Below are positions 53-19,841 of a DNA stretch of 20,349 bases, one piece after another. The notes beneath the pieces were generated by a model, which was not told where the DNA came from, did not search any database, and was given only the letters and a program-made list of their open reading frames with translations. The DNA is from a virus. Positions within the stretch are counted from its first letter, which is position 1, and every line of letters begins with the position of its first letter. The position numbers and the translations under genes were made by a program. Location of the stretch: IMG/VR virus record IMGVR_UViG_3300028573_000071, positions 1 through 20,349 of that record; one strand, given 5' to 3'.

Positions 53-898
53 ATGAAGGGTGATCTTGTTCTTCTGGATGACGTGAAGGCGTGGGTCTAC
101 AAGACCCCCGCTGGCGCTGGCGCAGGCGCCAATGACGCCCTCCTGAAAAGCATGATCACGCGGTTCTCGCAGCTTTGCGTGACCTACGTGAACCGCGTTC
201 CGTTTTATAAATCAACCGTCACCGAAACGCGCAACGGTTACGGTTCGCACAAGATGATACTGCGCGAATGGCCGGTGCTGTCTGTCACATCGGTCTACGT
301 GGACAACCAGCCTGTGTCGCCCGGCAGCAGCGTACCCGGCAGCGGATCGGGTTGGTCTGACGGCTACTATCTTGAAAGCTGGGACGGCACTGTGCCGGGC
401 AATCCGCAAGGCGTGACGCTCTACGGGTCGTGCTTCCCGCAAGGCGAGATGCGCACGCAGATCAGCTACGTCACCGGCTACACGGTGCTGAACGAACTTC
501 AGACCATCCCCGCAGCGAACGGTGTGGTCACGGTCACGACGCAGCCGACATGGGTCTACGATGAAGGTGTTACCTTCGCTGCGACTGGCGTTGCGCTGAC
601 ATTGGTGAACAGTGAGACACCGGCCAGCGGCCAGTACGCGCTTGGACCGGCTGGTGGCCAGTACATCTTCTCTGCTGCCGATGTCGGTCTGGGCGTGAAG
701 ATCAGCTACGACTTCGTGCCGGTCGATCTTCAGCAGGCGCTGATCGAATGGATCGCTGACCGCTACGCCTACATGACGCGTGTCGGCGTCAACTCGCAAA
801 CGGTCGGCGGGCAGATGACGACATCCTATTCGGTCAAGGCGGTGCCTGACTTCGTGAAGATGATACTGCAACAGTACCAGCGCGTGATCATGGTATGA
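53..898 (+). CDS. Head-tail connector (gp6/phiE125 gp8-like)
   Basis: Probable head-tail connector (adaptor) that docks on the portal ring and joins the DNA-filled head to the tail. The N-terminal half has the helical start and the 'REWPVLSVTSVYVD' segment typical of gp6/phiE125 gp8-like connectors. The C-terminus has the helical 'LQQALIEWIADRY' stretch usual in this family. At 281 aa it is longer than most members. The extra length is a beta-rich insertion at about residues 160-221, with a TWVYDEGV start and a QYIFSAADVG core, and this segment resembles one in the tail tube proteins downstream. The start has AGGTGA four bases upstream. Its stop overlaps the next start as ATGA. The family call rests on sequence pattern and on position as the first gene of the connector-neck-terminator-tube series. 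Confidence 0.8.
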   Translation: MKGDLVLLDDVKAWVYKTPAGAGAGANDALLKSMITRFSQLCVTYVNRVPFYKSTVTETRNGYGSHKMILREWPVLSVTSVYVDNQPVSPGSSVPGSGSGWSDGYYLESWDGTVPGNPQGVTLYGSCFPQGEMRTQISYVTGYTVLNELQTIPAANGVVTVTTQPTWVYDEGVTFAATGVALTLVNSETPASGQYALGPAGGQYIFSAADVGLGVKISYDFVPVDLQQALIEWIADRYAYMTRVGVNSQTVGGQMTTSYSVKAVPDFVKMILQQYQRVIMV

Positions 899-1404
899 GC
901 GACACGGAAATCACCGTGATCGTGGACTACCAGACCGCACTGGACACGATGACGAAGCGCGGCAAAGACCTTTACACCAAGGTTCGCAACGCGGTCATCC
1001 AGCAGCAACAGGCGCTGTATACGTTGATCCAGCAAAAGCTGGATGGTCAGGTGCTGAACGTTCGCACCGGCAAACTTCGCCGCAGCATTCAACGATCCAG
1101 TATCCTTGAAGGCTATGGAGTGATCGCAGGTTACGTCTATTCGGACAGTTCCGTCCGCTACGGCGCGATCCATGAGTTCGGCGGCACCATCCACCATCCC
1201 GGTGGCACCGCGTACTGGATCGACGCCAGCGGCATGATGCGCTTCGTCAGCAACGACATGGCGTCGCGCGTTCACTCTGGCGAATTCCCGCGCACACGGC
1301 CACACGACATTGTCATGCCGGAACGGTCCTTCATGCGATCCGCACTGCGCGAACGCGAAGCCGACATCCGCGCAGCACTCGCAGAAGCGGTGAAACCAGA
1401 ATGA
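895..1404 (+). CDS. HK97 gp10-like neck / minor tail protein
   Basis: Likely neck or head-closure protein of the HK97-gp10-like family. The 169-aa product has the family hallmark of an N-terminal helix followed by 'LNVRTGKLRRSI', a strand pair, and 'YGAIHEFGGTI' (VRTGxLRxSI ... YGxxHEFGG). It sits between the connector and the tail terminator-like gene, the usual place for this family. An insertion of about 20 residues after the HEFGG motif carries the 'HHPGGTAYWIDASG' segment seen in many members, and 'MPERSFMRSAL' is the expected C-terminal helix. It overlaps both neighbours by ATGA, so all three neck genes look translationally coupled. Confidence 0.85.
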   Translation: MSDTEITVIVDYQTALDTMTKRGKDLYTKVRNAVIQQQQALYTLIQQKLDGQVLNVRTGKLRRSIQRSSILEGYGVIAGYVYSDSSVRYGAIHEFGGTIHHPGGTAYWIDASGMMRFVSNDMASRVHSGEFPRTRPHDIVMPERSFMRSALREREADIRAALAEAVKPE

Positions 1405-1880
1405 GTTTTTACAGCAACCCTGAAACAGTGTTCGCCGCCTTGTGGGCGTTGGTGGCAGGCAACCCCGCCTTCGCCTACACATCGCGCCGCTGGCAGATAT
1501 GGACGGAACTGCGTCCTGATCAGCAGCCTGCGATCTTTCAGGTGCAGGTGCCGCAACGCACGATCCAATTCGACTACAGCAGCAAGTCGATGCCCATCGT
1601 CAGGTACATGGCGGAATGGATCATCTACAGCCGCACGGAAGACACGCAGCAGGGCATCCCGTCCACCAACATCAACAACCTTGTCGGTATCGCGACGGCA
1701 TTGCTGGAACCTGTGAACTTCGCGATGCAGGGGCCGGTCCAGAAGCCGCTGTTTGACGCGACTGGAAACCAGATCGCATACAACGTGAAGGTCACAGAGA
1801 TAAACATAGTTGAAGGCGTGGGTGGCGATAACGCCCAAAGCCTTGCCTACATCCCGCTTGAAATCACACGTCCAGTCTAA
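1401..1880 (+). CDS. Tail terminator / tail completion protein
   Basis: Probable tail terminator (gpU/gp17-like), which caps the finished tail tube and joins it to the neck. The 159-aa protein starts with a helix containing 'ETVFAALWALVAG', then alternating strands that include 'QPAIFQVQVPQRT', 'RYMAEWIIYSR' and a final 'LAYIPLEITRPV'. This is the alpha/beta layout of phage tail terminator proteins. No single catalytic or binding motif identifies it, so the call depends strongly on its place directly before the tail tube genes. It starts within the stop of the gp10-like gene (ATGA). Confidence 0.7.
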   Translation: MSFYSNPETVFAALWALVAGNPAFAYTSRRWQIWTELRPDQQPAIFQVQVPQRTIQFDYSSKSMPIVRYMAEWIIYSRTEDTQQGIPSTNINNLVGIATALLEPVNFAMQGPVQKPLFDATGNQIAYNVKVTEINIVEGVGGDNAQSLAYIPLEITRPV

Positions 1881-1892
1881 AAGGAGTTTGAA

Positions 1893-2639
1893 ATGCAACT
1901 TAACTTCGGTGTCGGCACTGCTGTCGCAAAGCGCACGGACGTGGCCAACAACAAGCCGGTCCTGCTGGGTGTCTTGCAGGATTTGGAAATCGACTTCAGC
2001 CAGTCGGTGAAAGAACTGATCGGCCAGTACAAGCTGCCGGTCGATGTGGCACCTGCTGCCTTGAAGATCACAGGCAAGGCGAAGTTCGCCCGCATGCAGA
2101 TCGACATGTTCAACGCACTGATGTTCGGAAACACGCTGACCGCTGCATCGGGCACCGATCTGATCGTCAACGAAGCGCACACGATGGCGGCGACGACATA
2201 TACTGTCGCATTCGGCGCGACGTTCATTGAAGATCAGGGTGTGTTCTACCAGAACACCGGCATTCAGCTTCAGCCTATCTCTGCTGCGCCGGGTCTTGGT
2301 CAGTATATTCCGGGCGCAGTCGGCGTCGGAACGTACACCGTCAGCGCGGGCGACAACACTGCTGCGTTGTACTTCAACTACACGCGCACCGTCACCACGC
2401 TGATCAGCATGGCTGGCGCCAATGCGCTGATGGGTTCGGGACCGCAGTTCGAACTGCTGGCGTCGAACACCTACACCGTTCAAGGCGTCGTGAAGACGAT
2501 GTACGTCAAGCTGAACGCTTGCCGCGCCACCAAGATGAACACGCCTTTCAAGAACACGGACTACACCATCGTGGACTTCGAATTTCAGGCGTTCATGGAC
2601 GCGTCGCTGAACTGGGGCACACTCGCGCTGTCTGAATAA
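1893..2639 (+). CDS. Major tail tube protein, copy 1
   Basis: Tail tube subunit that would stack as rings around the tape measure protein. The 248-aa sequence opens with MQLNFG and continues with 'LGVLQDLEIDFSQS', 'ELIGQYKLPVDVAP' and 'LKITGKAKFARMQ', a pattern of phage tail tube proteins. It ends in a 'TDYTIVDFEFQAF' strand. Residues about 104-164 form a beta module (TFIEDQGV ... QYIPG ... YTVSAGDN) resembling one in the connector. A good AAGGAG (1881-1886) stands six bases before the ATG. The next gene encodes a protein of the same length; ungapped alignment by eye gives 157 of 248 identical residues (63%). Which copy forms the tube cannot be told from sequence. Confidence 0.88.
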   Translation: MQLNFGVGTAVAKRTDVANNKPVLLGVLQDLEIDFSQSVKELIGQYKLPVDVAPAALKITGKAKFARMQIDMFNALMFGNTLTAASGTDLIVNEAHTMAATTYTVAFGATFIEDQGVFYQNTGIQLQPISAAPGLGQYIPGAVGVGTYTVSAGDNTAALYFNYTRTVTTLISMAGANALMGSGPQFELLASNTYTVQGVVKTMYVKLNACRATKMNTPFKNTDYTIVDFEFQAFMDASLNWGTLALSE

Positions 2640-2669
2640 GCTGGCGATCAACTAAACGGAGATAATTCA

Positions 2670-3416
2670 ATGCAACTCAATTTCGGTTCAGGCAACGCAA
2701 TCGCCAAGCGCACAGACGTTCTGTACAATCGTCCTGTCGTCCTTGGCGTCTTGCAGGATATTGAAATCGACTTCAGCCAGTCGATCAAGGAACTGATCGG
2801 CCAGTACAAGATGCCGGTGGACATCGCACCTGCCGAACTCAAGATCACCGGCAAAGCGAAGTACGCCCGCATTCAGGCTGACGGGTTCAATGCGCTGCTG
2901 CTGGGCATGACGGAGACTGTCAACGCAGGTTCGACAATCTCAGTGGCCGAAGCGCACACACCTGCGGCGGGCACGGCGACGATGGCCAACACCGCGACGT
3001 TCGTTGAAGACCTTGGTGTCTATTACGTCAGCACCGGGCTTCAGCTTCAGCCTGCTGCGTCGGCCTCTGGCGCTGGCATCTATGTCGCGCCTGCGGCTGG
3101 TTCCGGCGTCTACACCCACAACGCCGCCGACAACACCATACCGTTGCTCTACACCTACAGCTACACCGTCTCGACGCTGCTGAACGTCGCTGGCACATCG
3201 GCGCTGATGGGTACAGGTCCGCAGTTCCAGTTGATCCTTGAACAGAACTACACCGTTCAGGGAACGACCAAGACGTTGTTCATGAAGTTTAACGCATGTC
3301 GCGCGACCAAGATGAACATGCCGATGAAGAACACGGACTACACCATCAACGACTTTGAGTTCCAAGCGTTCGCGGACGGTTCGAACAACTGGGGCAGCAT
3401 CGTGACATCGGAGTAA
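2670..3416 (+). CDS. Tail tube protein, copy 2 (paralogue)
   Basis: Second tail tube protein, 248 aa, aligning without gaps to the gene just upstream at about 63% identity. The N-terminal 70 residues and the last 45 (RATKMN, KNTDYTI, DFEFQAF) are nearly the same in both. Residues 81-190 diverge most. The start has CGGAG (2657-2661) eight bases upstream, so it is translated independently. Neither copy shows a frameshift, missing motif or internal stop, so both look functional. Possible roles are mixed tube rings, a distinct segment near one tail end, or dosage. Copy 2 has the more divergent middle beta module (TFVEDLGV ... AADNT). Confidence 0.88.
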   Translation: MQLNFGSGNAIAKRTDVLYNRPVVLGVLQDIEIDFSQSIKELIGQYKMPVDIAPAELKITGKAKYARIQADGFNALLLGMTETVNAGSTISVAEAHTPAAGTATMANTATFVEDLGVYYVSTGLQLQPAASASGAGIYVAPAAGSGVYTHNAADNTIPLLYTYSYTVSTLLNVAGTSALMGTGPQFQLILEQNYTVQGTTKTLFMKFNACRATKMNMPMKNTDYTINDFEFQAFADGSNNWGSIVTSE

Positions 3417-3421
3417 GTTGA

Positions 3422-3610
3422 ATGAAACGCATGCGGGGCAAGCAAGGCTTCGCCGTTCAAAATTCGGTCTACGCACCGGATGAGAACGGCGAAGTCCTCG
3501 TATCTGACCATCACGTCGAAACAGCGAAGGCACACGGATATGCCGAAGTCGAACCCGCTTCACCCGTTGATGCAGGACCGGCTGAAGCCGAACCGGAAGC
3601 TTCTGATTGA
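3422..3610 (+). CDS. Small acidic-tailed tail-region protein
   Basis: Hypothetical protein of 62 aa. It reads MKRMRGKQGFAV, then 'VYAPDENGEVLVSDHHVE' and 'AKAHGYAEVE', followed by an Ala/Pro/Glu-rich tail. Small proteins with a similar G-F-x-V, Y-x-P-D-x-x-G-x-V and HGF/Y pattern occur among phage structural genes, but I know of no function. GGAG lies about seven bases before the ATG, and the gene begins just after the second tube gene's stop. Its 3' end overlaps the following chaperone frame by at least 41 bp. A +1 shift at the terminal GAT-TGA would fuse it to that gene. Confidence 0.65.
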   Translation: MKRMRGKQGFAVQNSVYAPDENGEVLVSDHHVETAKAHGYAEVEPASPVDAGPAEAEPEASD

Positions 3611-4169
3611 ATACCCATCAATCGTAGTTGCCGGGCTGGCGTGGCCCATTCCACCGTTTGCGCCGCGCCAGCTTCGCTTCATCCTTCCTGCCATGGACCG
3701 CCTGCAAGCCAACAGCTACGACGCGCTGGTGGACATCGTGTTCATGGCGCTGACGCGCGGACATCCTGACATCGACAAGGATGACTTCGAAGACTGGCCA
3801 GTCTCCACCACCGAACTGCGCGAAGCGGTTCCGGTCATCATGCGCCAGACCGGCCTGCGTGACGACAAGAAGAAACCCGGCCCGCTATCGGTCAAACCTG
3901 AGTGGCCGGACTGGGACGCGGTGATCGCAGAGTTCTGCAACTTCCTGCCGGGCACCACGCCTGACTACTGGGAAGACGCGCTGACGGTCGCGCGCATGAA
4001 CGCCCAGTACGCAGCATGGAAGAAGTACCCGCCGCTGCCAGTCGTGGCTGCTGGCTATCTGAAATATAAACCTGACGCAGAAGTTCAGGACGACATCGAA
4101 CCGATGGACGCCAGCACCGTTGACCGGCTGCTGAACATGTTCCCTGAAGGCGATATAAAAATAAACTGA
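3570..4169 (+). CDS. Tail assembly chaperone, long form
   Basis: Putative tail assembly chaperone, the role played by the lambda G/GT proteins, which keeps the tape measure soluble and recruits tube subunits. Residues about 15-100 match the short protein downstream: 'IVVAGLAWPIPPFAPRQ', 'DIVFMALTRGHPDID' and 'DDFEDWPV' against TITIGDQDWPLPKLGPKQ, EIVFTALTRGSPDLT and EEFDDLPL. After that comes a further 100 residues with 'LPGTTPDYWEDALTVARMN', absent from the short form. The start is uncertain. ATG 3570 gives 199 aa with a 41-bp overlap and matches the paralogue's start. ATG 3540 or 3480 would overlap the 62-aa gene further. No strong SD precedes any of them, so coupling or a +1 frameshift is possible. 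Confidence 0.7.
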   Translation: MQDRLKPNRKLLIEYPSIVVAGLAWPIPPFAPRQLRFILPAMDRLQANSYDALVDIVFMALTRGHPDIDKDDFEDWPVSTTELREAVPVIMRQTGLRDDKKKPGPLSVKPEWPDWDAVIAEFCNFLPGTTPDYWEDALTVARMNAQYAAWKKYPPLPVVAAGYLKYKPDAEVQDDIEPMDASTVDRLLNMFPEGDIKIN

Positions 4170-4180
4170 AGGAGAAGAAG

Positions 4181-4564
4181 ATGAGCGTTGCGCATTCGAA
4201 GCCTGCTGACGCGGGCACGACTACGATCACCATTGGCGATCAAGACTGGCCGCTGCCGAAGCTTGGTCCCAAGCAGAACCGCATAATCGTTCCGAAACTG
4301 ACAGTCATCCTACCCCACATCCTCGCCAGCGCGAAGGTTGAAGGCGGCAGCATGGACAAGCTCGCGTCGTACCTGTCACAGGACCACTACGACACGATGC
4401 TGGAAATCGTCTTCACCGCGCTGACACGCGGATCGCCCGATCTTACGCGCGAAGAATTTGACGATCTTCCGCTTGGAACATTGGAGATGATCAACGCGCT
4501 GACGCCGATTGCACGTGCGGCTGGGTTGCTTGATACCCCTGTGATCGTTGCCAAGAAGGACTGA
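4181..4564 (+). CDS. Tail assembly chaperone, short form
   Basis: Short paralogue (127 aa) of the preceding chaperone domain. It has 'TITIGDQDWPLPKLGPKQ', 'YDTMLEIVFTALTRGSPD' and 'EEFDDLPLGTLEMINALTP', then ends soon after 'ARAAGLL'. It lacks the C-terminal extension of its neighbour, and between the two shared blocks it has about 20 extra residues. It has its own strong AAGGAG (4169-4174) six bases before the ATG. The stop is followed within six bases by the tape measure start, and I see no overlapping reading frame that could serve as a frameshifted T-like extension. It therefore looks like the G-equivalent encoded by a separate gene. Confidence 0.72.
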   Translation: MSVAHSKPADAGTTTITIGDQDWPLPKLGPKQNRIIVPKLTVILPHILASAKVEGGSMDKLASYLSQDHYDTMLEIVFTALTRGSPDLTREEFDDLPLGTLEMINALTPIARAAGLLDTPVIVAKKD

Positions 4565-4569
4565 CGTGA

Positions 4570-7377
4570 ATGGCCGATGGCGACATCAACGTCCAGATCA
4601 CTGCGACCATCACCGATCTGCTGGACAAGATGCAGCAGGCGCAGAATGCTATTCGGCAAGCCGCCGATGGCATGAAAGACGGCATGAGCGATGCCGGGGA
4701 CGCCGCCAAGGGTCTTGGTGACGAACTCAGCAAAGCGTTCATGGTTGCTGAAATCACTATCGCCTACGAAGCGATCAAGCAAGTCACCGAAGCGATCTAC
4801 GGCTTCGCTTCGGCAATGGCCGACCTTGGAGACAAGGCCGGTATTATGTCCAAAGAACTGGGCATGTCCGTCGAAGAAGTCACGGCGTTCGCATACGCCG
4901 CTGGCTTGGTGGATGTAAGCGGCGAAGGTGCCGCGCGCATGCTGGAACGTCTTGAACGCAACATGACGGCTGCCCAGTCAGGCACCGGCATGCAGGCGGC
5001 AGCGTTCCGTTCGCTCGGCATCACCACGGACGAACTGAAGAACAAGTACACGTCGCTGGACAGCTTGCTGCCTGTGATCGCAGACAAGTTCGCTGCGACC
5101 GCAGATGGTCCTGCCAAGACCGCCATCGCCATATCACTGTTCGGTCGCGCTGGCGCGGACATGATACCGATACTGGATCAGGGCGCTGCTGGTCTTGATC
5201 AGTTGAAACAGCACGCCACCGATCTGGGCGTGGTACTGGATGGGCCGACCGCCGCCGCGATGACGGAAGTCCACGACAAGCTGTATGACATCGGTCAGGC
5301 CATCGAAGGCGGTGCGATCACTGCCTTTATGAAGATGAAACCAACCATCGTCGCGCTGATCGATGACTTCACGGCGTTCGTGCAGCAGGTGAAGGCGACA
5401 GTCACCAGCACCGAAGCTGTCGAACAGGTGTGGAACCCGCTGATCGCTATCGGCACCGCGCTGTGGAACGCAGTCACCACCGTGTGGACGGCACTTGAAA
5501 AAGTCGCCACATCGCTGGGCGTCACATCGACGGCCAGCAGCACGCTGTCCGGGGCGTTCGAACTTCTTCTGGATGTCCTGAAGCTGGTCGCCACTGCCAT
5601 CGATGCGACCGCTGCATGGATCGGCATTCTGGGCGATGACATCAAGACGTTCGTAGATGAAAGCGAAATCCTGATCCACGCACTGGGGCAGGCGTTCATC
5701 GATGTCGCGTCGCTGGACATGTCGAAAGCCGCCGCCGACTGGGACGACGCGCTTCAGAAGATCGAAGACAGCGAAAAGACCCACGCTGCAAATGTGCTGG
5801 CTATTGAAACCAAGCTGCACAATGACGTGAAGGCGATGCGTGACAGCACGGACATCCCGTCTGTGACCATTACGCCGAAGGTGAAAGAACCCGACTTTAA
5901 GCCGCAGCTTGACGCACCTGTCACGGAGAAGAAGAACAGCGCCGCGCAGAAGGCTGCCGAAGAACTGGCGACCATCGAAGAAAAGGCTGCCGCCGAACGC
6001 ATCAAGCGCGAACAGCAGACCGATGACACGCTGCTGAAGCTGGGTCTTGAAACGTATCAAGACTACGAAAACAACACGATCAAGCATGAAAACGAACTCT
6101 ACAACATCCAGATGCAGGCCATCGACCGCAAGGAAAAAGCGGACGCTGGCGACAAGGCGAAGCTTGCACAGGATGAAGCTGAACGCGAAGTCCTGACACA
6201 GCAGCATCTGGCGCGTCTTGAGAAGATCACCGATGACGCGATGGTTCACGCGCAGAAGGTGCGTGACGAAGATTTGAAATCCTTCATCAACGATCAGGAA
6301 GCCGAACTAAGCGCCGCGTTGAAGGGTATCGATGACGAATACAAGGCGCATGAAATCAGCGCCCAAGATCGTCGCGATATGGAAGTCGCGCTGACGCGCG
6401 ATATTGAAGCGCAGGTGCTTGCACGTTTCGACGCCGACCACGCCAGTCTTGTGAAGGGCACGGACGAATGGCGCAAAGCCATGACGGAACGCGAAGCCCT
6501 TGTCCGCAAGTTCAACGCCGATGTGATCAAGGCCGACACGGAACTGCGTCAGGAAGAACAGGCGCAGTGGACGACGCTGACGAACTCGATTGAAAATTCG
6601 TTCAAGTCGGCCATCGACGGCATGCTGTTCCAAGGCAAGACCTTCGCCCAAGGGATGCAGCAGATCGCCAGCGGCATCCTTCAGTCCTTTGTCGATCTTG
6701 GCATGAAGATGCTGACGGACTGGATCAAGACGCTTGCGCTGGAACTGTTGCACCACAACACGACGCAGGCTGCCAAGACCGCTTCGACCGTCGCTGCCAA
6801 CACCGCCCAGACAACTGCCGTCACTGCTGGGCAGGTCGCACAGACGACAGCCGTGGGCGCAGCGCAGGCCGCGCAGACCACGGCTGTCGCCACGGCACAG
6901 GTGGCGCAGGCCGCAGCGTTGATCGCTAGTTCGACGCTGGCCATGCAGGCCGCTGTCGCCTTGGCCGGTGCGAACGGCGTGGCGTCCTTTGCGCTGGCAC
7001 CGTGGCCCATCGATGTCGGTGCGCCAGAATTCGGCGCGTCCATGGCAGCCGCAGCGGGTGCGTTCGCCTTCGCTGGCGGCGCAGGCTTCGCGCAAGGTGC
7101 ATGGGACATTCCCGGCGACATGAACGCTCGCATCCACCAAGGCGAGATGATCCTGCCCAAACCGTTCGCTGAAGACTTCCGCAACAAGGCTTCGGCCAAT
7201 GGCGGGGGCGGGTCGCTGGGCGGCGGCGGTGACACCGTCCACGTTCACATCACGGCGATGGACGCCCAGTCTGTGCAGCGCCTGTTCGACAATAACAGCA
7301 GCGCGCTGGTGACGGCGTTCGCGAAAGCCAAGCGCAACAACCATGGTGCCTTCACCAAGATGGCGAACCCGACATGA
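4570..7377 (+). CDS. Tail tape measure protein
   Basis: Tape measure protein (935 aa), which sets tail length and is threaded inside the tube. Residues 80-240 contain the family segment 'MSKELGMSVEEVTAFAYAAG', 'LFGRAGADMIPIL' and 'LGVVLDGPTAAAMTEVHDKL'. Residues about 440-690 are rich in Glu, Lys and Ala and probably coiled coil. An Ala/Thr-rich hydrophobic part follows (about 735-845) with an 11-residue tandem repeat. The end carries the common 'FAQGAWDIPGDMNARIHQGE' motif. From the usual 0.15 nm per residue, the tail would be near 140 nm long (inference). AAGGA about nine bases upstream supports the start, and the stop overlaps the DUF2460 start as ATGA. Confidence 0.95.
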   Translation: MADGDINVQITATITDLLDKMQQAQNAIRQAADGMKDGMSDAGDAAKGLGDELSKAFMVAEITIAYEAIKQVTEAIYGFASAMADLGDKAGIMSKELGMSVEEVTAFAYAAGLVDVSGEGAARMLERLERNMTAAQSGTGMQAAAFRSLGITTDELKNKYTSLDSLLPVIADKFAATADGPAKTAIAISLFGRAGADMIPILDQGAAGLDQLKQHATDLGVVLDGPTAAAMTEVHDKLYDIGQAIEGGAITAFMKMKPTIVALIDDFTAFVQQVKATVTSTEAVEQVWNPLIAIGTALWNAVTTVWTALEKVATSLGVTSTASSTLSGAFELLLDVLKLVATAIDATAAWIGILGDDIKTFVDESEILIHALGQAFIDVASLDMSKAAADWDDALQKIEDSEKTHAANVLAIETKLHNDVKAMRDSTDIPSVTITPKVKEPDFKPQLDAPVTEKKNSAAQKAAEELATIEEKAAAERIKREQQTDDTLLKLGLETYQDYENNTIKHENELYNIQMQAIDRKEKADAGDKAKLAQDEAEREVLTQQHLARLEKITDDAMVHAQKVRDEDLKSFINDQEAELSAALKGIDDEYKAHEISAQDRRDMEVALTRDIEAQVLARFDADHASLVKGTDEWRKAMTEREALVRKFNADVIKADTELRQEEQAQWTTLTNSIENSFKSAIDGMLFQGKTFAQGMQQIASGILQSFVDLGMKMLTDWIKTLALELLHHNTTQAAKTASTVAANTAQTTAVTAGQVAQTTAVGAAQAAQTTAVATAQVAQAAALIASSTLAMQAAVALAGANGVASFALAPWPIDVGAPEFGASMAAAAGAFAFAGGAGFAQGAWDIPGDMNARIHQGEMILPKPFAEDFRNKASANGGGGSLGGGGDTVHVHITAMDAQSVQRLFDNNSSALVTAFAKAKRNNHGAFTKMANPT
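6805..6936 (+). repeat. 33-bp tandem repeat inside the tape measure gene
   Basis: Three consecutive 33-bp units (6805-6837, 6838-6870, 6871-6903) plus a degenerate fourth encode AQTTAVTAGQV, AQTTAVGAAQA, AQTTAVATAQV and AQAAALIASST. The 11-residue (hendecad) period suits a straight helical bundle within the tape measure. The units differ at synonymous positions, so the repeat is not a very recent slippage product. Confidence 0.85.
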
Positions 7378-8000
7378 GCGTATCCGTTCTTCCAGCGATG
7401 CCGATCTTGGCGTGGCCAGCTATTCGTTCACCGATCTGGAAGACGCGCGTGCAGACTTCTGTCAGCGGCAAGGAAGTGCGCATTGCTGACTGGTCGTATC
7501 CACGGTACAAATGGCAGCTTGCATTCAACGGTCTTCGTCAAGGTGGCATCGGCGCGTCCACGGAGTTCCAGCAGATGCTGGCGTTCTTCAACACGTTGCA
7601 AGGTGGCTGGGACAGCTTCTTGTACACGGACGTGGATGACAACAACGTCGCGAACCAGTTAATCGGAACAGGTGCCGGTGTCGTCACCACGTTCCAGTTG
7701 GTCAAGCTTTTCGGCGGGTACGCGGAACCCGTCACTGCGCCGAACCTGATCGGCGGCGGCACGAATTTCATCCTGAAGGTTGCTGGCGTCACAAAGGTGT
7801 ACGGCACCGACTACACGGTCAGCGACTGGTCATCATCGACACCGGGTGTCGTGACATTCACCGCAGCGCCGACCGGCGCGATCACGGTGACGTTCAACTA
7901 CTACTATCCGTGCCGCTTCGATGACGACACAATCGACTTCAGCAAATTCCTTTCTTACGTCTACGAACTCAAGAAGCTTTCCTTCACGAGTATAAAGTGA
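7374..8000 (+). CDS. DUF2460 distal tail protein
   Basis: DUF2460-family protein (208 aa), the first of the tail-tip series that in gene transfer agents and related phages forms the distal tail ring below the tape measure. Family marks are 'WKTRVQTSVSGKEVRI' and 'YPRYKWQLAFNGLR' near the N-terminus, 'FNTLQGGWDSFLYTD' in the middle, and the C-terminal 'NYYYPCRFDDDTIDFSKF' followed by a short strand. A glycine-rich beta part (about 95-180) includes 'TTFQLVKLFGGYAEPV' and 'GVVTFTAAPTGAITVTF'. It starts inside the tape measure stop (ATGA). Confidence 0.9.
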   Translation: MSVSVLPAMPILAWPAIRSPIWKTRVQTSVSGKEVRIADWSYPRYKWQLAFNGLRQGGIGASTEFQQMLAFFNTLQGGWDSFLYTDVDDNNVANQLIGTGAGVVTTFQLVKLFGGYAEPVTAPNLIGGGTNFILKVAGVTKVYGTDYTVSDWSSSTPGVVTFTAAPTGAITVTFNYYYPCRFDDDTIDFSKFLSYVYELKKLSFTSIK

Positions 8001-8242
8001 AACTCTGGCTGTTCATCTTCACCCAACCTGATCGCAAATTTGTCTCCGCACGTGTCGCTGCCGACACGCGCGATGAAGCTTGTTCGATCATGGGGGAAGC
8101 CTTGCAGCGCATACTGGTCGCACAGGAAAACGTGCATCCTGAACCCGGCACGATCCTGACGATGATAGGCAACGAACCTGCTGATCATGCCGGTCTTGTC
8201 CACCTGCGCGATCTGAACAACGAACTGTGGGTGCCAGCGTGA
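7997..8242 (+). CDS. Small hypothetical protein in the tail-tip operon
   Basis: I do not recognise this 81-aa protein. It starts at GTG 7997, overlapping the DUF2460 stop as GTGA, and its own stop is overlapped as GTGA by the DUF2163 gene. This exact fit in the coupled gene chain argues that it is real. The sequence predicts beta-alpha-beta ('LWLFIFTQPDRKFVSARVAA', 'DTRDEACSIMGEALQRILVA') and ends in 'VHLRDLNNELWVPA'. There is no signal peptide or membrane segment. It may be a small tail-tip accessory or an inserted gene. Confidence 0.72.
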   Translation: MKLWLFIFTQPDRKFVSARVAADTRDEACSIMGEALQRILVAQENVHPEPGTILTMIGNEPADHAGLVHLRDLNNELWVPA

Positions 8243-9147
8243 GCAAGCCAGTCTCCGCGCAGTTCCAGACCCTGATGGGTACGCGCCAGTTCTACGCAGC
8301 CGATCTGTGGACGGTGAACTTGGCGAACGGCGCGGGTACGCTGTACTATTGCAGCGGCGATCAGAACATCAACGCGAACGGCAACACCTATCTGTGTGGT
8401 GGCACGACAGGTCCATACTGGGACCGCACCGGCAGCAAGGCGAAGTTCCACTGGTCAACCGGCACCAGCGTCGATGAATTACAGGTCGATGTCATACCCG
8501 GTTCATCGACCGTACTTGGTCTGGCGTTCCTGAACGCCGTGCGTCGCGGCGTGTTCGATGGCGCAGAAGTTATTCTGGAACGCGCGCTGATGCCGACCTA
8601 CGGCGACACGTCGCGGGGTCTTGTCCGCGTCTTCATTGGCCGCATGGCACCTGTTGTCGCCGGTCGTTCGCTGATCACGTTCAGCATCAACAGTCATCTC
8701 GAACTTCTGAACCTTCAGTTCCCCCGCAATCTTGCGCAGTCCACCTGCATGAACAACTGGGGCGACACCCAGTGCGGCATCGTCCAGTCCAGCTATCGCG
8801 GCAGCGGAACGCTGACAGGCACCCCAACGGTCGCGCAGTTCACGACAAGCACGCTGGGCGGGACGTTCGCAACGGGCACGTTCGACCATGGCAAGATCGT
8901 CTTCACCAGCGGCGTGCTGAACGGTTATCAGGCTACGATCAAGCAAGCGACGCTTTCCGGTTCGCCGTCTTCAGCGACAGTTTTCCTTGCGGGGTATCTC
9001 CCGGTCGCACCTTCAGCCGGTGACAGTTTCTTCATCTACTACGGCTGCAACAAGAGTTACACCGACGCGAACGGCTGCCCGAAGTTCAGCAACACCGCAC
9101 GCTTCCGTGGAATGCCTTTCACACCGCAACCCGCGACGGCAGTTTGA
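8239..9147 (+). CDS. DUF2163 / BR0599-type tail-tip protein
   Basis: DUF2163-family (phage BR0599-like) tail-tip protein, one of the hub components between the distal ring and the J-like protein. The start is taken as GTG 8239 (302 aa), which overlaps the previous stop by four bases; GTG 8227 would add four residues. The N-terminal half has 'YAADLWTVNLANG', 'LYYCSGDQNI' and 'VDELQVDVIPGSS'. The C-terminal half has the family's Cys pattern: 'STCMNNWGDTQCG' near residue 170 and 'YYGCNKSYTDANGCPKFSN' near 270, ending in FRGMPF. These cysteines are a likely metal or disulfide site by family resemblance. It overlaps the peptidase gene by one base. Confidence 0.9.
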   Translation: MSKPVSAQFQTLMGTRQFYAADLWTVNLANGAGTLYYCSGDQNINANGNTYLCGGTTGPYWDRTGSKAKFHWSTGTSVDELQVDVIPGSSTVLGLAFLNAVRRGVFDGAEVILERALMPTYGDTSRGLVRVFIGRMAPVVAGRSLITFSINSHLELLNLQFPRNLAQSTCMNNWGDTQCGIVQSSYRGSGTLTGTPTVAQFTTSTLGGTFATGTFDHGKIVFTSGVLNGYQATIKQATLSGSPSSATVFLAGYLPVAPSAGDSFFIYYGCNKSYTDANGCPKFSNTARFRGMPFTPQPATAV

Positions 9148-9641
9148 TGGACAATGAAAAGCGCAGGCAGGATGTCATCGATGAAGCGTTGACGTGGGTG
9201 GGGACACCTTACGTGTCGAACGCGCGCGTCAAGGGGCGCAACGGCGGTGTCGATTGCCTGACGTTTGTCGCTGGCGTGTACGAACATGCAGGCGTCATCG
9301 ACCGTCTGGACATTCCGCACTATCCGCCAGACTGGCATCTTAATCAGGAAGCCGAACTGTATTTGATCGGCAAGGACACGACGCCGGGCATGCTGCACTT
9401 CTGCCGGGAAATCTTCACCCCGCCGCAGAAGGCTGACATCGTCCTGTGGAGGTTCGGACACTGCTACGCGCACGCTGCCATCGTTGTCGAATGGCCTACT
9501 GTCATTCATGCGTGGGCAGAACGTGCCGTCGCCATGGAAGACGCCACTGGCTACTACACACTGAACAAGATCGTTGAAGAAGCCGGTCGTCACCGCGAAG
9601 ATCGCCCGCGCAAGACCTTCGAAGTGAAGGACTGGCGCTGA
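9147..9641 (+). CDS. NlpC/P60-type tail-associated peptidase
   Basis: Putative phage cell-wall peptidase of the NlpC/P60 family, which sits at the tail tip and could open peptidoglycan during DNA entry. The 164-aa protein has 'WVGTPYVSNARVKGRNGGVD' leading to the likely nucleophile Cys37 in 'VDCLTFVAGVYEHAG'. His109 in 'CYAHAAIVVEWP' and His121 in 'VIHAWAE' fit the other two catalytic positions. Only peptide-bond hydrolysis is predicted; which bond is cut cannot be told. The start is ATG 9147 in a TGATG junction; the upstream TTG 9144 is less likely. The gene order DUF2460, DUF2163, NlpC/P60, J is that of gene-transfer-agent-like tails. Confidence 0.92.
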   Translation: MDNEKRRQDVIDEALTWVGTPYVSNARVKGRNGGVDCLTFVAGVYEHAGVIDRLDIPHYPPDWHLNQEAELYLIGKDTTPGMLHFCREIFTPPQKADIVLWRFGHCYAHAAIVVEWPTVIHAWAERAVAMEDATGYYTLNKIVEEAGRHREDRPRKTFEVKDWR

Positions 9642-12600
9642 TGGCTTTCTTCTTCGGTGGTGGTGGAAAGACCAACGCAGCCAGCACGCCGAACTACACC
9701 GGCATGCAGTTGCAATCATCTGCCTACGGTCTGGTCGTTCCAGTCGTCTATGGAACGACGCGCATCGGCTGGAACCTGCTGGACTACGTGAACTTCAAGA
9801 CGGTCACGACACCGTCCAGCAGCGGCGGTAAGGGCGGCATCGTCGGCGGTGGTGGTGGCAAAGGTTCGTCATCCAGCACGACTAGTTACACCGCCACGGT
9901 CGCTGGTGTTCTGTGCGAAGGCCCGATCCATGGCGTCTACAGTTCATGGTCAAGCCAGACACCGCTTGCGGGTTATCCGAACTTCACGGTGTTCACAGGC
10001 GCGCTGGCACAAACAGTGTGGTCGTGGTGGGCGGCGAACGGTTTTGGTTCACACGCTGTCAACTACAGCGGCTTCGCCTACGCGGCGGCTGCAAACTACA
10101 ATCTTGGATCGTCGGCCAACTTCCCGAACATGAACTGGGAAGTGCAAGCGTTGTTGTGGAACACTGCCCCCGGAACCTACGGCGGCAACGGCTGCGCCAC
10201 AGGCGGCGACGCCGATCCAAGTCAGATCATTCCCGACATCCTAACAAATACCAAGTATGGCGTGGGCTTTCCTTCTGCACGTGTCGGTCAAGTCAACTTC
10301 TGGAACGAAGCGCACAGCGGCGCGACATCTATCACTGTCACGCACGCTTCGACGTTCAACTACAACGTCAGCGTTTACGACGCGAACCTTAGCATCAGCC
10401 TGACATGTGTCGCAGGAACGCCTGCGGCCAACCAGTACAGCTTCACGACTGCTGGCGCGTACACCTTCAACGCCGCGCAGAATGGCCACGCGTTGACGAT
10501 CAACTACGTCACCGTCGATGCGATGACGAACTACCAGAACTTCACGATGGCCTCCGGCCTGTGGATGTCACCTGCCTACACATCGCAGTCGCAGGCATCC
10601 TCCGTTCTGGACGACATCGCCAAGGCAACCTATTCGGAAGTGCTGTGGTCAAGCGGTGTTCTTCAGATGGTGCCGCGCGGAACGCAGAACATCACCGCGA
10701 ATGGCTTCACCTTCACGGCCAACATCACGCCAGTGTACGCGCTTGGCCCTGACGACTTCCTTGACGGAACGACCGGCAATGCGTCGGACCCGGTCACGAT
10801 CACGCGCAACCGCAAGGCTGATCAGCTTAACGTCATCAAGATCGAAGCACTGGATCGCGCCAACCAGTATGCGCCCGCTGTCATAGAGATGACCGACCAA
10901 GCGCAGATCGACCAGTACGGTCGCCGCGCTGCGGCCAGCCAGTCGCTGCATCACTTCTGCGATCTACAAGCGGCCAAGACGTGCGCCGCGCTTCAGCTTC
11001 AGGACACATACATTCTGAACCAGTACGCGTTCAACGTCGATGAACGCTACATCGTGCTTGATCCGATGGACATCGTCACGCTGACTGACCCATCGTATCC
11101 GGGTCTGACAAATATCGGCGTGCGCATCATCGACATGACGGAGAACGATGATGGTACGATCAGCATCATCGCTGAAGAATTTCCCGGCACCATCGGAACG
11201 GTGCCGACCTATCACATCGACCCCGGCAGCGGCACGATCCAGAACTTCAACGCGGACCCCGGCAACGCTGCCGCGCCTGCGGTGTTCGACGTTCCTGTGC
11301 AGCTTGCGAATGCGACAAACCTTGAAACGTGGCTGGCGACGTGTTCCGCCACCGGCAACGCCAACTGGGGCGGCTGCGATGTCTATCTGAGCGCGGACAA
11401 CACCACCTTCGTCAAGAAGGGCACGCTGTTCGCACCGTCGCGCATGGGCGTCACGACAGCGACCTTCGCCATCGGTAGCGACCCCGACACGGTCAACACC
11501 CTGAGTGTCGATCTAACCAATTCCTTTGGCGCGCTGCTGGGCGGCACGCAGGCCGACGCCGATCAGGACAACACACTTTGCTTCGTCTGCAACACGGACG
11601 GCACGAACGGCGAATATGTTTCGTACCAGCAGGCCACGCTGACAGCGACCTACAAGTACGATCTGGGTAAGTCCGGCGCATCGCCCGGCTACCTGCGTCG
11701 CGGCCAGTGGGGTACGTCGCCTGTCGCGCATCCGTCCGGCTCATTGTTCGTGCGTCTGGACGACAACATCTTCACGATGCCGTACACGCCTGCCGATGTC
11801 GGCAAGACCCTCTACATCAAGCTGGTCAGCTTCAACATCTGGGGCGCGGGCTATCAGTCACTGGGCAGCGTCACGTCTTACGCGCACACCATTGCTGGTC
11901 CGCCTATTCCGCCACTGGTGCAGAACTTCACTGCCGCGCAGAACGGCAATGCTATCGCGCTGGCGTGGACCGATCTGACGACCGCAGGTATCAAGGGTTA
12001 CGACATTCTGTTTGGTCCTGTTGGCGGAACGGTCGCGACCGCGACGTTGCTGTCTGAAGCTTCGCGCCAGACTGCTGAAACAACGGTTGGTGTGCCGCCC
12101 GGCACATGGGTGATGTATATCCGTGGGCGCAACATTGCGAACCAGTATGGTCCTGCAAGCAGTTCAACGGTAACAGTTTCGAACACGAACATCACCATCG
12201 GTTCGTTCAAGCAGGAACCGGATTGGCTCGGCACATTGAGCGGCTATGTGCTGCACTACACAGGCGTGCTGGTGCCGGTCAGCCAGACACTTGCGAGCGC
12301 ATGCACCTATGCGCAGTTAGCTTGCGGGTTCAATCCTGTCGCGAACCCGACATACACCGCGCCGACATACGATGAAGGGTTCAATTCTTCATCGCGCATC
12401 TTCTATACTATCTCTGGCCGTGCGGCTGGCGCGTCAGGTCTTGCACCATCGCTGGCGTCGTATCTGGATTACTGGCTGTCAGGATTTAGCGATCCGAACA
12501 CCTACATTCCGTGGACTGTCGGTTCAGTTCTTTCGCGTTACAATAATTTCCGCGTCATCGATCAGGCACCAGCGCCGCAAGTGCTGACACAGTTCGACAT

Positions 12601-12853
12601 CACAGTCGATGCGCCGCTTCAGGATTACGTGATCAATGGTTTCGCAGTTTCTAGCCTTGGCACTGTGCTGAACTTCGCAGCCAACAATATCGGGCCGTTC
12701 CATAATACGCCGAACGTCCAAGTGACACCTGTTGATGGTGTCGGAACCGGCGGCGGTGCGTCACCGATCAGCGCAACACAAGCAACCATCACAGAATACC
12801 AAGGTGTGGCTGCCATCAACGGCACCGTCAACCTTCGCATCTCAGGAAACTAA
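9641..12853 (+). CDS. Large tail-tip / host-specificity protein (J-like)
   Basis: Central tail-tip protein (1070 aa), which likely forms the base of the tip and carries host-binding parts. It opens with MAFFFGGGG and 'YGLVVPVVYGTTRIGWNLLD', followed by a Gly/Ser spacer (about 50-75). Residues about 230-290 hold the beta module also seen in the tail tubes. Residues 380-530 resemble the Phage-tail_3 domain ('RKADQLNVIKIEALDRANQY', 'HFCDLQAAKTCAALQLQ', 'LDPMDIVTLTDPSYPG'). An FN3-like domain is at about 752-855 ('AIALAWTDL', 'GYDILFGPV', 'WVMYIRGRN'). The C-terminal 200 residues are beta-rich and unassigned. It starts in a TGATG junction with the peptidase gene. Confidence 0.88.
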   Translation: MAFFFGGGGKTNAASTPNYTGMQLQSSAYGLVVPVVYGTTRIGWNLLDYVNFKTVTTPSSSGGKGGIVGGGGGKGSSSSTTSYTATVAGVLCEGPIHGVYSSWSSQTPLAGYPNFTVFTGALAQTVWSWWAANGFGSHAVNYSGFAYAAAANYNLGSSANFPNMNWEVQALLWNTAPGTYGGNGCATGGDADPSQIIPDILTNTKYGVGFPSARVGQVNFWNEAHSGATSITVTHASTFNYNVSVYDANLSISLTCVAGTPAANQYSFTTAGAYTFNAAQNGHALTINYVTVDAMTNYQNFTMASGLWMSPAYTSQSQASSVLDDIAKATYSEVLWSSGVLQMVPRGTQNITANGFTFTANITPVYALGPDDFLDGTTGNASDPVTITRNRKADQLNVIKIEALDRANQYAPAVIEMTDQAQIDQYGRRAAASQSLHHFCDLQAAKTCAALQLQDTYILNQYAFNVDERYIVLDPMDIVTLTDPSYPGLTNIGVRIIDMTENDDGTISIIAEEFPGTIGTVPTYHIDPGSGTIQNFNADPGNAAAPAVFDVPVQLANATNLETWLATCSATGNANWGGCDVYLSADNTTFVKKGTLFAPSRMGVTTATFAIGSDPDTVNTLSVDLTNSFGALLGGTQADADQDNTLCFVCNTDGTNGEYVSYQQATLTATYKYDLGKSGASPGYLRRGQWGTSPVAHPSGSLFVRLDDNIFTMPYTPADVGKTLYIKLVSFNIWGAGYQSLGSVTSYAHTIAGPPIPPLVQNFTAAQNGNAIALAWTDLTTAGIKGYDILFGPVGGTVATATLLSEASRQTAETTVGVPPGTWVMYIRGRNIANQYGPASSSTVTVSNTNITIGSFKQEPDWLGTLSGYVLHYTGVLVPVSQTLASACTYAQLACGFNPVANPTYTAPTYDEGFNSSSRIFYTISGRAAGASGLAPSLASYLDYWLSGFSDPNTYIPWTVGSVLSRYNNFRVIDQAPAPQVLTQFDITVDAPLQDYVINGFAVSSLGTVLNFAANNIGPFHNTPNVQVTPVDGVGTGGGASPISATQATITEYQGVAAINGTVNLRISGN

Positions 12854-12855
12854 GC

Positions 12856-14400
12856 ATGTCAATTTTCCCGTCCGCACTGATCGTCCCGACCAACAACACT
12901 GCCGACAACGTTGGTGCGTGGCTGAACCGCGTCGATGCCGACTTCGCTGCGTTCCTGCGTGCTGCCGGGCAATGGGCACCGCGTTCCGCGCCAGTCACGC
13001 CGAACATGACGATGTGGATCGACCCCGGCACGAACATTCTGGGCACGACCGAAACGGAACTGGGCAACTGGTGTACTGGCAACAGCCACACCACCACGAC
13101 CATCGACGGTGTGAGCATCACGGAAGGCATCACCCAAGGCGCGCCAGTTCAAGGCTGGTACTACAACGCTGGTACGCTTACTGCGCTGTTCCCTGCGAAC
13201 ACCTACATCGCGACCGTCACTGCTGGCGCGCTGAACGCTGGTTCATTCACCACGAACAACGCCGCTGTCACAACAACGACCGGCGCGATCATCTTGGTTG
13301 GCCAAGGCTTGGGCGGCATCGTCAACGCCAACACGCACAGCAATACGACCATCGATGGTTTCCCGGCTGGCTGGTTGACCGCGAACAACATCCAAGCTGG
13401 AATGAATATCGTCGCGTCCGGTCTGGTGCTGACCACTGTGGCGTCAACGCCTGCGTCCGGCGCAACATCACTGACCACGACCGGCAGCGCAACAACGACA
13501 CTGACCGGCACGCCAATCACTATCACCATCGGCGCACCGGCTTCCAATCCGCGCATCGACCGCATCACGCGCAGCGCAACCAACGGCACCATCACATGGA
13601 CAAAGGGCACAGAAGCAGCAGTTCCGGCTGCTCCTGCGCTGCCCGGCAACCAAATTCCAATCGCCAATCTTTATCTGGCGACCAGCACAACCGCGATCAC
13701 CAACACCAGCGTGATCGCTGACAAGCGTTTCGTTGGCGGTGGCGGTGGTGGCGGTGCAGGGCAGGTGGCGAACCTTGCCATCGCAGCGAACACTGCGGAC
13801 CTTGGAACGATCACGTCCAACAACGTGAACATCAACAGCGGTTCAGGCCCGATCAATTCGTTCGGATCATCCGCACAAGTCACCAATCCGTTCTTCATGG
13901 TGCAGATGGGCGTTGCTGTCGTCCTGACGTACAATGCGACATCGATGATTTTGCCCGGTGGCAAGAACATCACGACCGCTGTTGGCGACTTTCTGACTGC
14001 CCAGTATCTTGGATCGGGCAACTGGCAGGTTGTTGACTATCAACCTGTCGGCTGGCGCGCAGGCCCAGACATCGTTCCGCCGATTGGTGGCGCAGCGATG
14101 ACAACCAGCCATTCTCTGGTGATGGCTGACATCGGATACAACGCACTGTTCAACGCCACGACGCTGACGTTGACTATCCCTGCGAACTCATCTGTTCCAT
14201 TCCCGATTGGCACAGTCATTCCGTTCGACAATATCTTCGCGGGCAACCTGACGGTCGCGATCACGACCGACAGCATGTTCATCGCGGGCAGCACGACTGG
14301 CGGCGCTGGTGTATCGCGCACAGTCGGGCAGAACGGCAGCGGTACAATCAAGAAGGTCGCCGCGACTATGTGGCTGATCCAAGGCGCGGGTGTCTCGTGA
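12856..14400 (+). CDS. Tail fibre / receptor-binding-type protein
   Basis: Putative fibre-like virion protein of 514 aa, following the J-like gene by two bases and with AGGAA about eight bases upstream. Residues 1-110 are a mixed domain ('NVGAWLNRVDADFAAFLRAA'). Residues 110-225 are a Thr/Ala/Gly-rich beta stretch. Residues 232-293 contain 'RIDRITRSATNGTITWTKG', 'LPGNQIPIANLYLA' and a D-K-R end, a module I associate with phage tail fibres. A glycine hinge (about 294-302) follows. The C-terminal part has 'HSLVMADIGYNALFN', 'TLTIPANSSVPFPIGTVIP' and 'TMWLIQGAG', a beta repeat common at fibre ends. It probably contributes to host binding. Confidence 0.7.
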   Translation: MSIFPSALIVPTNNTADNVGAWLNRVDADFAAFLRAAGQWAPRSAPVTPNMTMWIDPGTNILGTTETELGNWCTGNSHTTTTIDGVSITEGITQGAPVQGWYYNAGTLTALFPANTYIATVTAGALNAGSFTTNNAAVTTTTGAIILVGQGLGGIVNANTHSNTTIDGFPAGWLTANNIQAGMNIVASGLVLTTVASTPASGATSLTTTGSATTTLTGTPITITIGAPASNPRIDRITRSATNGTITWTKGTEAAVPAAPALPGNQIPIANLYLATSTTAITNTSVIADKRFVGGGGGGGAGQVANLAIAANTADLGTITSNNVNINSGSGPINSFGSSAQVTNPFFMVQMGVAVVLTYNATSMILPGGKNITTAVGDFLTAQYLGSGNWQVVDYQPVGWRAGPDIVPPIGGAAMTTSHSLVMADIGYNALFNATTLTLTIPANSSVPFPIGTVIPFDNIFAGNLTVAITTDSMFIAGSTTGGAGVSRTVGQNGSGTIKKVAATMWLIQGAGVS

Positions 14401-18560: not shown

Positions 18561-19841
18561 ATGTCTGACGTGATCCATCAACTCGGCAGGAACAAGACCC
18601 CGCACGATCCGCGCAACCTGCGCTTCGCCAAGTATGTCGGCGCGGCCATCGCTGCCGGTGCGCTGCCTGCACCGCCTGATGCTCTCAACTGGAACAAGGG
18701 CAGCATCCCATGGGGGATGATGAAGAACGATAGCCTTGGCGACTGCTGCATCGCAGGTGTAGGCCACATCGTTCTGGAAGACTTGTTCACCACGACCGGC
18801 ACGGCGACGCGCCCGAACGACAACCAGATCGTGGACATGTATTGCCGCGCCTGCGCGTATGTTCGCGGCAACGCCAAGACCGATCAAGGCTGCGGCCTTC
18901 AGCCGGTGCTGAACTACTGGCGCAACTTCGGTATCGCTATCGGCAACGATCCTGTCGTCTACAAGGGCACGCTGATCAGCGGCGCGTTCAAGGCAGGTGA
19001 AAACCTGATCTGCCAGACTGCCGATCCGCACACGGCCAAGCTTCTGGTTCTGGATCAGAACGGCCAGCCGATGAACCCCACGCAAATTCCGGCATGGTCG
19101 TTCAGCGGCACCGCGCCGACCTTCAAGAACATCTTATCTGCCGACAAGCAAAGCGCGCAGGTGAACGGCCCTGAAGGGTCGAACGAACAAGTCACCGTCA
19201 AGGACGGTGCCTTGTCCACATCGACGGTCATCAGCTTCGTCAAGGACACCGGCATTCTCGTTTCCCAGAGCGGTGGCGTACTGACGCTGACTTCAGAACT
19301 CTATCCGTTCCAGCCGGGCGATGTCATCGTCGGCGTCAGCAGTGGCGCGCAGTTCAAGGTCGCCGCCGACAACGTGTCGGTTTTCCCGACCATGCACAAA
19401 ATTCATTCCTACGTTCAGCTAGGGACCGCCTTCGGTTTCAATCCTAATGTTGTGCCCGCTGCGCAGGCGCATCTGGAACTGAAGCTGGCGATCCAGTTGT
19501 TCGGCGCGGCGTACTGCGCGGTCGAGTTGCCGAAGTATTCGCAGTCAGGATGGGCGTCGAAAGTTTGGGACGTTCCGCCGACCGGCCTGACGGGAAACGG
19601 CGCGCGCGATAGCTGGGGCGGTCATTGCGTTCCGATCATCGGCTACGATGCGGTCGGCCCGTACTTCGTCACGTGGAGCAAGGTCTGCCACATGACATGG
19701 GCGTACTACGACACCTATTTCGATGAAGCCTATGCGCCGCTATCGACAGACTGGATCAACAACGCGACCAAGCTGTCGGCGTCCGGCTTCGACTTCGCGA
19801 CCCTGCTGTCCGATCTGGGGCAACTCCCCAAGGCAGCCTGA
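18561..19841 (+). CDS. Papain-like cysteine protease candidate with inserted beta domain
   Basis: Protein of 426 aa. Its ends read like a papain-fold cysteine peptidase: Cys62 in 'NDSLGDCCIAGVGH' is the likely nucleophile, and His355 in 'SWGGHCVPIIGYD' the likely base. A Trp-rich 'FVTWSKVCHMTW' and 'YFDEAYAPLSTDWI' follow. Between 'LNYWRNFGIAIG' (to residue 128) and 'MHKIHSYVQLG' (from 278) about 150 residues of beta-rich sequence are inserted, and part of it resembles the beta module of the tail tubes. There is no signal peptide. A strong GGGAGGA precedes the ATG. It is the last gene of the rightward run. Role unknown: virion maturation, host wall or protein cleavage, or an inactive binding protein. 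Activity is inferred from motifs only. Confidence 0.72.
   Translation: MSDVIHQLGRNKTPHDPRNLRFAKYVGAAIAAGALPAPPDALNWNKGSIPWGMMKNDSLGDCCIAGVGHIVLEDLFTTTGTATRPNDNQIVDMYCRACAYVRGNAKTDQGCGLQPVLNYWRNFGIAIGNDPVVYKGTLISGAFKAGENLICQTADPHTAKLLVLDQNGQPMNPTQIPAWSFSGTAPTFKNILSADKQSAQVNGPEGSNEQVTVKDGALSTSTVISFVKDTGILVSQSGGVLTLTSELYPFQPGDVIVGVSSGAQFKVAADNVSVFPTMHKIHSYVQLGTAFGFNPNVVPAAQAHLELKLAIQLFGAAYCAVELPKYSQSGWASKVWDVPPTGLTGNGARDSWGGHCVPIIGYDAVGPYFVTWSKVCHMTWAYYDTYFDEAYAPLSTDWINNATKLSASGFDFATLLSDLGQLPKAA

Follow-up and report, generated by a model that had tools for sequence, protein, structure and literature searches.

Promiscuous immunoglobulin-like (Ig-like) domains of the Big_2, I-set and FN3 types were reportedly described on phage virion proteins by Fraser et al. 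in 2006. The major tail protein gp44 of phage JBD30 carries a decoration domain with an Ig-like fold at residues 88-175, after the peripheral helix (PDB 8rk3; PMC11445458). In the tail tube of YSD1, the inserted domain 2 is a variant of the Ig-like fold that latches onto the neighbouring subunit and buries 950 square angstroms (PDB 6xgr; PMC7385642), and the adaptor of roseophage R4C bears an extra Ig-like attachment domain that is outside the known Ig Pfam families (PMC10276861). Here we analysed the IMG/VR virus record IMGVR_UViG_3300028573_000071 (20,349 nucleotides, the whole of which is called the window), a 20.3 kb record of an uncultured tailed phage, carrying a siphovirus late region. 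A beta-strand domain of about 65 residues, termed the module in the following, is located inside four of its proteins: the head-tail connector, two tandem tail tube proteins and a J-like tail hub protein. The most plausible reading of the module is a promiscuous decoration domain, constitutive in the tube and optional elsewhere. Promiscuous phage Ig-like domains and an Ig-like domain on an adaptor (R4C) are already known; the module would be a further family of this kind.

The four copies in the window are homologous and are located as follows (pLDDT: predicted local distance difference test):

524..721, + strand: module copy in the connector, residues ~158-223, preceded by the last gp6 strand and followed by helix 224-239; held-out profile E 8.5e-22 (match 159-223); homologues with an empty site exist
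2190..2393, + strand: module copy in tail tube 1, residues ~100-167; held-out profile E 3.4e-15; pLDDT ~95-97 over most of the stretch
2967..3173, + strand: module copy in tail tube 2, residues ~100-168; held-out profile E 3.0e-15
10322..10516, + strand: module copy in the J-like protein, residues ~228-292, flanked by the N-terminal region and the Phage-tail_3 domain; held-out profile E 2.4e-17; module-less relatives have no residues here

The held-out profile was built from 108 copies from outside the window, contains zero window sequences and was searched against the 175 open reading frames (ORFs) of the window together with 175 reversed ORFs. The four copies were found with E values of 3.4e-15 to 8.5e-22, the next window ORF reached 0.055 and the best reversed ORF 3.7. 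An original prediction, made from the sequence alone, had proposed four or five copies of a small beta module in this region. The copies in the connector, both tail tubes and J hold; the candidate fifth copy in a protease-like ORF (19233-19385) obtained an E value of 1.8 with the held-out profile, which is background. The region had also been set to begin at position 640, which is too late, the connector copy spanning ~524-721 and the J copy ~10322-10516.

All-versus-all phmmer searches among the window proteins gave matches limited to the module between connector and tail tube 1 (1.3e-6), connector and J (6.6e-6) and tail tube 1 and J (9.7e-7), with weaker matches for tail tube 2. Tail tube 1 as query against the window's own record found J with 8.7e-7 and the connector with 8.6e-6. 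The comparison of hidden Markov models (HMMs) that had been proposed as a check yielded 99.7% for tail tube and connector, 99.6% for tail tube and J and 99.5% for connector and J, versus at most 2% for control regions of the same phage proteins (DUF2460 excepted); the family alignments behind these percentages were collected with one common profile and are biased toward similarity, a bias that is absent from the phmmer result and only partly absent from the held-out profile. A chance likeness among beta-rich phage proteins, due to convergence or shared composition, would be compatible with motifs as simple as Y-T-F and A-A-D-x-G and with the similar pattern seen in a native element of the DUF2460 protein. 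This explanation is nevertheless extremely improbable: held-out E values of 1e-15 to 1e-22 contrast with the 3.7 of the best reversed ORF, real segments (three were scored) obtained 63.7-77.7 bits whereas none of their shuffles, about 1000 per segment, exceeded 15.8 bits (with a profile that included the window copies), profile-profile values were at least 99.5% and the strand order was identical. The held-out profile, the shuffles and the profile-profile comparison rule out chance similarity for the four window copies.

The proteins that host the module are:

53..898, + strand: head-tail connector (gp6-like adaptor), 281 amino acids; phrog_442 head-tail adaptor 3.6e-13; Foldseek matches to RcGTA and T5 adaptors; model pLDDT 88.5
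1893..2639, + strand: tail tube 1, 248 amino acids; phrog_8234 2e-33; Foldseek matches to the solved tail tubes 8xkn, 8rk3 (JBD30) and 6xgr (YSD1)
2670..3416, + strand: tail tube 2, tandem paralogue of tail tube 1 with 63% identity over the full length; phrog_8234 9.5e-37
9641..12853, + strand: J-like tail hub protein, 1070 amino acids; Phage-tail_3 3.8e-23 at residues 314-490; phrog_1101 tail protein 2.3e-70

Profile and fold both identify the connector as a gp6-like head-tail connector, and the RcGTA and T5 adaptors are ~90-110 residues shorter than it. The tail-tube family is PHROG 8234, listed with unknown function in PHROGs; phrog_8234 covers residues 1-237 of tail tube 1 and 1-240 of tail tube 2, the whole protein in each case, which makes both of them members. 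The same profile matches residues 123-221 of the connector (6e-8) and 227-302 of J (3.9e-6), in and around the module only, and the presence of the module in connector and hub explains why a tail-tube profile matches those proteins. Since the two tail tubes are whole-gene duplicates, their modules count as one acquisition, not two. Two tandem tail-tube genes are likewise present in one of the related loci (L036, 9671-10423 and 10427-11188); such pairs may form a two-protein tube, or one of the two may be a minor variant.

AlphaFold models were generated for the tail tube (alignment of 44 tail tubes) and the connector (alignment of 37 connectors) and had mean pLDDT values of 86.8 and 88.5, respectively. 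The module was mostly above 93; a block at residues 161-170 of the connector had 77. Strands were predicted at residues 87-97, 102-104, 111-119, 125-128, 137-139, 147-150 and, following a short helix, 158-167 in the tail tube, and at 144-151, 158-160, 167-175, 183-185, 194-197, 203-206 and, again following a short helix, 214-221 in the connector. Strand order and spacing are therefore identical in the two models at an offset of ~57 residues, with the short helical turn preceding the last strand. Structure prediction, the second check suggested beforehand, thus agrees for connector and tail tube, and together with the profile-profile value of 99.7% it bears out the claim that different virion proteins have a beta unit in common.

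Foldseek aligned the window tail tube over its whole length with solved tail tubes, including those of JBD30 and YSD1. In the model, helix 70-78 is followed by the module at ~100-167 and then by strands 186-246, which makes the module an insertion after the peripheral helix. The number of strands in the inserted domain fits an Ig-like fold and the whole-chain alignments to 8rk3 and 6xgr span the insert. According to the model, the tail-tube module occupies the place of the Ig-like decoration domain of JBD30 and YSD1. In predicted fold and position it resembles the JBD30 gp44 domain, an Ig-like unit on the outside of the tube that is inserted after the peripheral helix and ahead of the final strands of a single-domain tail tube (8rk3; PMC11445458). 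It differs from it by having no detectable sequence similarity, and the accessible part of that report describes the domain for the tail protein only. Domain 2 of the YSD1/chi tube is also a beta-sandwich inserted into a tube protein, and its structure shows it latching onto the adjacent subunit, but it is described as distinctive of chi-like phages, is given for the tube only and has no sequence match to the module (6xgr; PMC7385642).

Like the Big_2, I-set and FN3 domains, the module is a single small beta domain in varied virion proteins; it scores below their Pfam cut-offs, and its copies are mostly internal insertions, including one in the neck connector. The R4C attachment domain is, by its description, an additional domain on a head-tail adaptor as well, but it is N-terminal (1-106), while the module lies between the last strand and the helix (PMC10276861). 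A Pfam scan of 15 module copies gave nothing above cut-off, the weak single matches being DUF11 (0.051), YDG (0.076) and Ig_3 (0.1). The module family has no Pfam model, and a limited search of the open-access literature found no paper on it.

Relatives were gathered from viral contigs, phage records and bacterial genomes; the viral contigs were searched with a consensus module, and a scan of bacterial genome contigs with the same consensus contributed at least one locus. In the collected loci, the module was present in 57 of 58 tail tube ORFs (the exception is a fragment of 95 amino acids), 27 of 44 connectors, 17 of 44 J-like proteins, 6 of 52 DUF2460 proteins and 1 of 45 DUF2163 proteins, frequencies that are inflated, most of all for the tail tube, because most loci were fetched by the module itself. 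Three further DUF2163 proteins with a module came from bacterial genomes. None of 54 tape measures and none of 42 NlpC peptidases in the collected loci contained it. Loci fetched only via a different protein family had the module in 14/14 tail tubes, 4/19 connectors, 9/20 J, 1/35 DUF2460 and 1/33 DUF2163 proteins, so the contrast between the tube and the rest survives the fetching bias.

The empty site is clean in 11 aligned module-less connectors, where the last strand (Y-T-A-G) runs directly into the next helix; module-bearing connectors have ~75-90 additional residues at this position. The J copies of the window and of one related locus (L067) follow the N-terminal region and precede Phage-tail_3, at a position that is empty in relatives, and other J proteins carry the module after the core or as tandem pairs. 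The clean connector sites, the variable sites and tandem pairs in J and the occurrences in DUF2460 and DUF2163 proteins show that the unit moves between protein families, as had been supposed. Altogether, this Pfam-absent domain family connects tail and neck proteins of five kinds. Orthologues with and without the module at a clean site are available, which opens the function of optional virion decorations to direct testing.

Among 50,697 phage records, 7 contained the consensus module. Its rarity in cultured phages and the ease with which it is found in uncultured viral contigs suggest that it has probably been overlooked. The Brevundimonas phages Polewnik and Strzyga, cultured siphoviruses of B. 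pondensis LVF1, bear the module in several of their proteins. Polewnik encodes a protein of 856 amino acids (L017, 26346-28913) with a glycine-rich domain, DUF2460 and a module near the C-terminus. Divergent module copies in PHROG 2729 and 16710 proteins, called virion structural proteins (L068, L070 and L071, ORFs ~9670-10430), suggest a wider superfamily. Two Neisseria gonorrhoeae records in a plasmid collection (NZ_CP119140.1 and NZ_CP119142.1) contain a module-like stretch with 49% identity to the consensus that is unlisted as a gene and is possibly a prophage tail gene. In locus L065 a match lies in a reverse-strand ORF.

The original prediction had further suggested a spread of the module through one genome. 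Recent duplication within this genome would explain why four proteins of a single genome carry it, but is very unlikely given that the identity of modules between different proteins is 0.375 within a genome versus 0.377 between genomes. When genomes were permuted within families, the mean identity was 0.389, and 1910 of 2000 permutations were at or above the observed value. Modules cluster mainly by host protein: 53/53 tail-tube, 21/27 connector and 16/21 J copies had their closest counterpart from another genome within their own protein family, 50 of the 53 tail-tube copies form one supported group in the module tree, and the host-protein labels on this tree require 18 changes compared with 51 when shuffled. 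With both tail-tube copies deriving from the duplication of a whole gene and the fifth copy failing, recent spread within the genome is not supported. The nearest-copy pattern and the grouping in the tree suggest instead that the copies are of long standing and move together with the proteins that host them. The closest counterparts of the DUF2460 and DUF2163 copies are modules from tail tube, connector or J, and several separate acquisitions are likely.

Our preferred reading, to which we give a probability of about 0.82, is that the segment is one homologous small beta domain that phages inserted into loops pointing outward on the ring-forming proteins of neck and tail, that it was acquired separately on several old occasions, and that it is an optional decoration outside the tube. 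Copies would have been taken up from a pool of such domains by connector, J-like hub, DUF2460 and DUF2163 proteins, on several separate and old occasions. In these four families the module would be optional and most likely an extra outward decoration that might stabilise the ring, make weak contact with the cell surface, or both. Phages thus seem to employ one and the same surface element over the full length of the tail.

Several points weigh against this reading, among them the inflated frequencies mentioned above. Neither the module nor the tail-tube profile gave any sequence match to solved structures (the connector profile matches solved adaptors, though not across a whole module), so that the equivalence with the JBD30 and YSD1 domains is one of fold and position only, and the template modelling (TM) scores to these two tubes are moderate (~0.5). 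The structural support comes from the tail tube and connector models, with the J, DUF2460 and DUF2163 copies outside it. By analogy we infer the outside position on the virion and the latch contact in the tube; a part in adhesion and the way in which copies were passed on would be inferences as well. The module tree has 66 columns and is poorly resolved, which makes the number and direction of transfers uncertain.

What the module does on the virion can be discussed in terms of two roles, ring clamp and glycan binding, which by analogy would be about equally probable. If it acted mainly as a clamp, it would pack onto the neighbouring subunit and stiffen tube, neck and hub, to the exclusion of host contact. 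The latching domain 2 of YSD1 with its buried 950 square angstroms (PMC7385642), the module in all 14 tail tubes of loci fetched via other families and the host families, all of which are presumed from known virions to form rings (12-mer, hexamer or trimer), are consistent with this. However, many related connectors, J-like, DUF2460 and DUF2163 proteins do without the module, which is thus not needed for those rings, and in J it is found at differing sites and also in tandem pairs. We regard an exclusive clamp as conceivable, though at less than even odds.

A tape measure accounts, as a rule of thumb, for ~1.5 angstroms of tail per residue, and the one in the window is 935 residues long. With the ring rise of ~43 angstroms given for the JBD30 tail (PMC11445458), about 200 tube module copies per virion would be expected; the connector would add 12 and the hub 3. 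The module might serve mainly adhesion, as a scaffold with variable loops that binds host-surface glycans weakly along the tail. There are precedents: the lactococcal 936 phages, a single phage group, place carbohydrate-binding modules in their neck, in the major tail protein and in Dit (PMC6669499), and Ig-like domains of mycobacteriophage Douge bind host glycans (PMC13033339). Binding to host cells was shown experimentally for the 936 modules, whereas the module described here is known from sequence and models. Its optional presence in connector, J, DUF2460 and DUF2163 proteins and its absence from tape measure and peptidase would suit adhesion. The conserved columns are mostly hydrophobic and turn positions (D-x-G-V, P-x-x-G-Q-Y, G-x-Y-T-F-x-A-A-D-x-G and V-x-I-x-Y-x-Y) and the loops are variable, as expected of a scaffold. 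On the other hand, no common polar patch or conserved candidate ligand site was apparent across 112 copies, no carbohydrate-binding Pfam family matched above cut-off (CBM_X2 reached 0.046 in one divergent protein), and its almost invariable occurrence in the tube hints at a structural requirement. We put a role mainly in adhesion at somewhat below even odds as well.

The DUF2460 protein of the window (7374-8000) contains a native beta element that adjoins the site where relatives hold a module; in their DUF2460 proteins, the module is inserted directly before this element.

7755..7910, + strand: native element of the DUF2460 protein, residues ~128-179, a possible remote relative and not a confirmed copy; profile-profile 9-35%, pair E 4e-4 to 4e-3

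Compared with the control level of at most 2%, these values make the element a possible remote relative of the module, a lead from sequence comparison and not a result. A more far-reaching idea, which we consider unlikely, is that a single undescribed family acts as an all-purpose plug-in of virion rings along the whole siphovirus tail axis (neck connector, tube, DUF2460 distal-tail protein and hub), always in outward loops, with the native DUF2460 element as an ancient worn copy and part of the tail machine built by repeated capture.

Two further candidates were not counted as copies. The segment in the protease-like ORF scored 6.9 bits, a value reached by 3 of 965 of its own shuffles, and segments of the DUF2460 and DUF2163 proteins score alike. 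This ORF (18561-19841) has a beta-rich insertion at residues ~200-285 and a phrog_19005 match in its C-terminal part, and relatives of it were found in none of the collected loci. The fibre-like ORF 12856-14400 has a partial module match at residues ~187-211 with 12.9 bits, above 999 of 999 shuffles; it spans less than half of the module and its held-out E value is 0.055.

The late region encodes connector, neck proteins, the two tandem tail tubes, two small related ORFs and the tape measure, and then DUF2460, DUF2163, an NlpC-like peptidase, the J-like hub, fibre-like proteins and lysis genes. The names tape measure, chaperone and peptidase derive from position and the look of the sequence, not from a profile match. 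The two small ORFs (3480-4169 and 4181-4564) are located upstream of the tape measure, at the position of the tail assembly chaperone. They have a 55-residue segment in common (phmmer 2.3e-13), both match phrog_7947, and they look like a duplicated pair.

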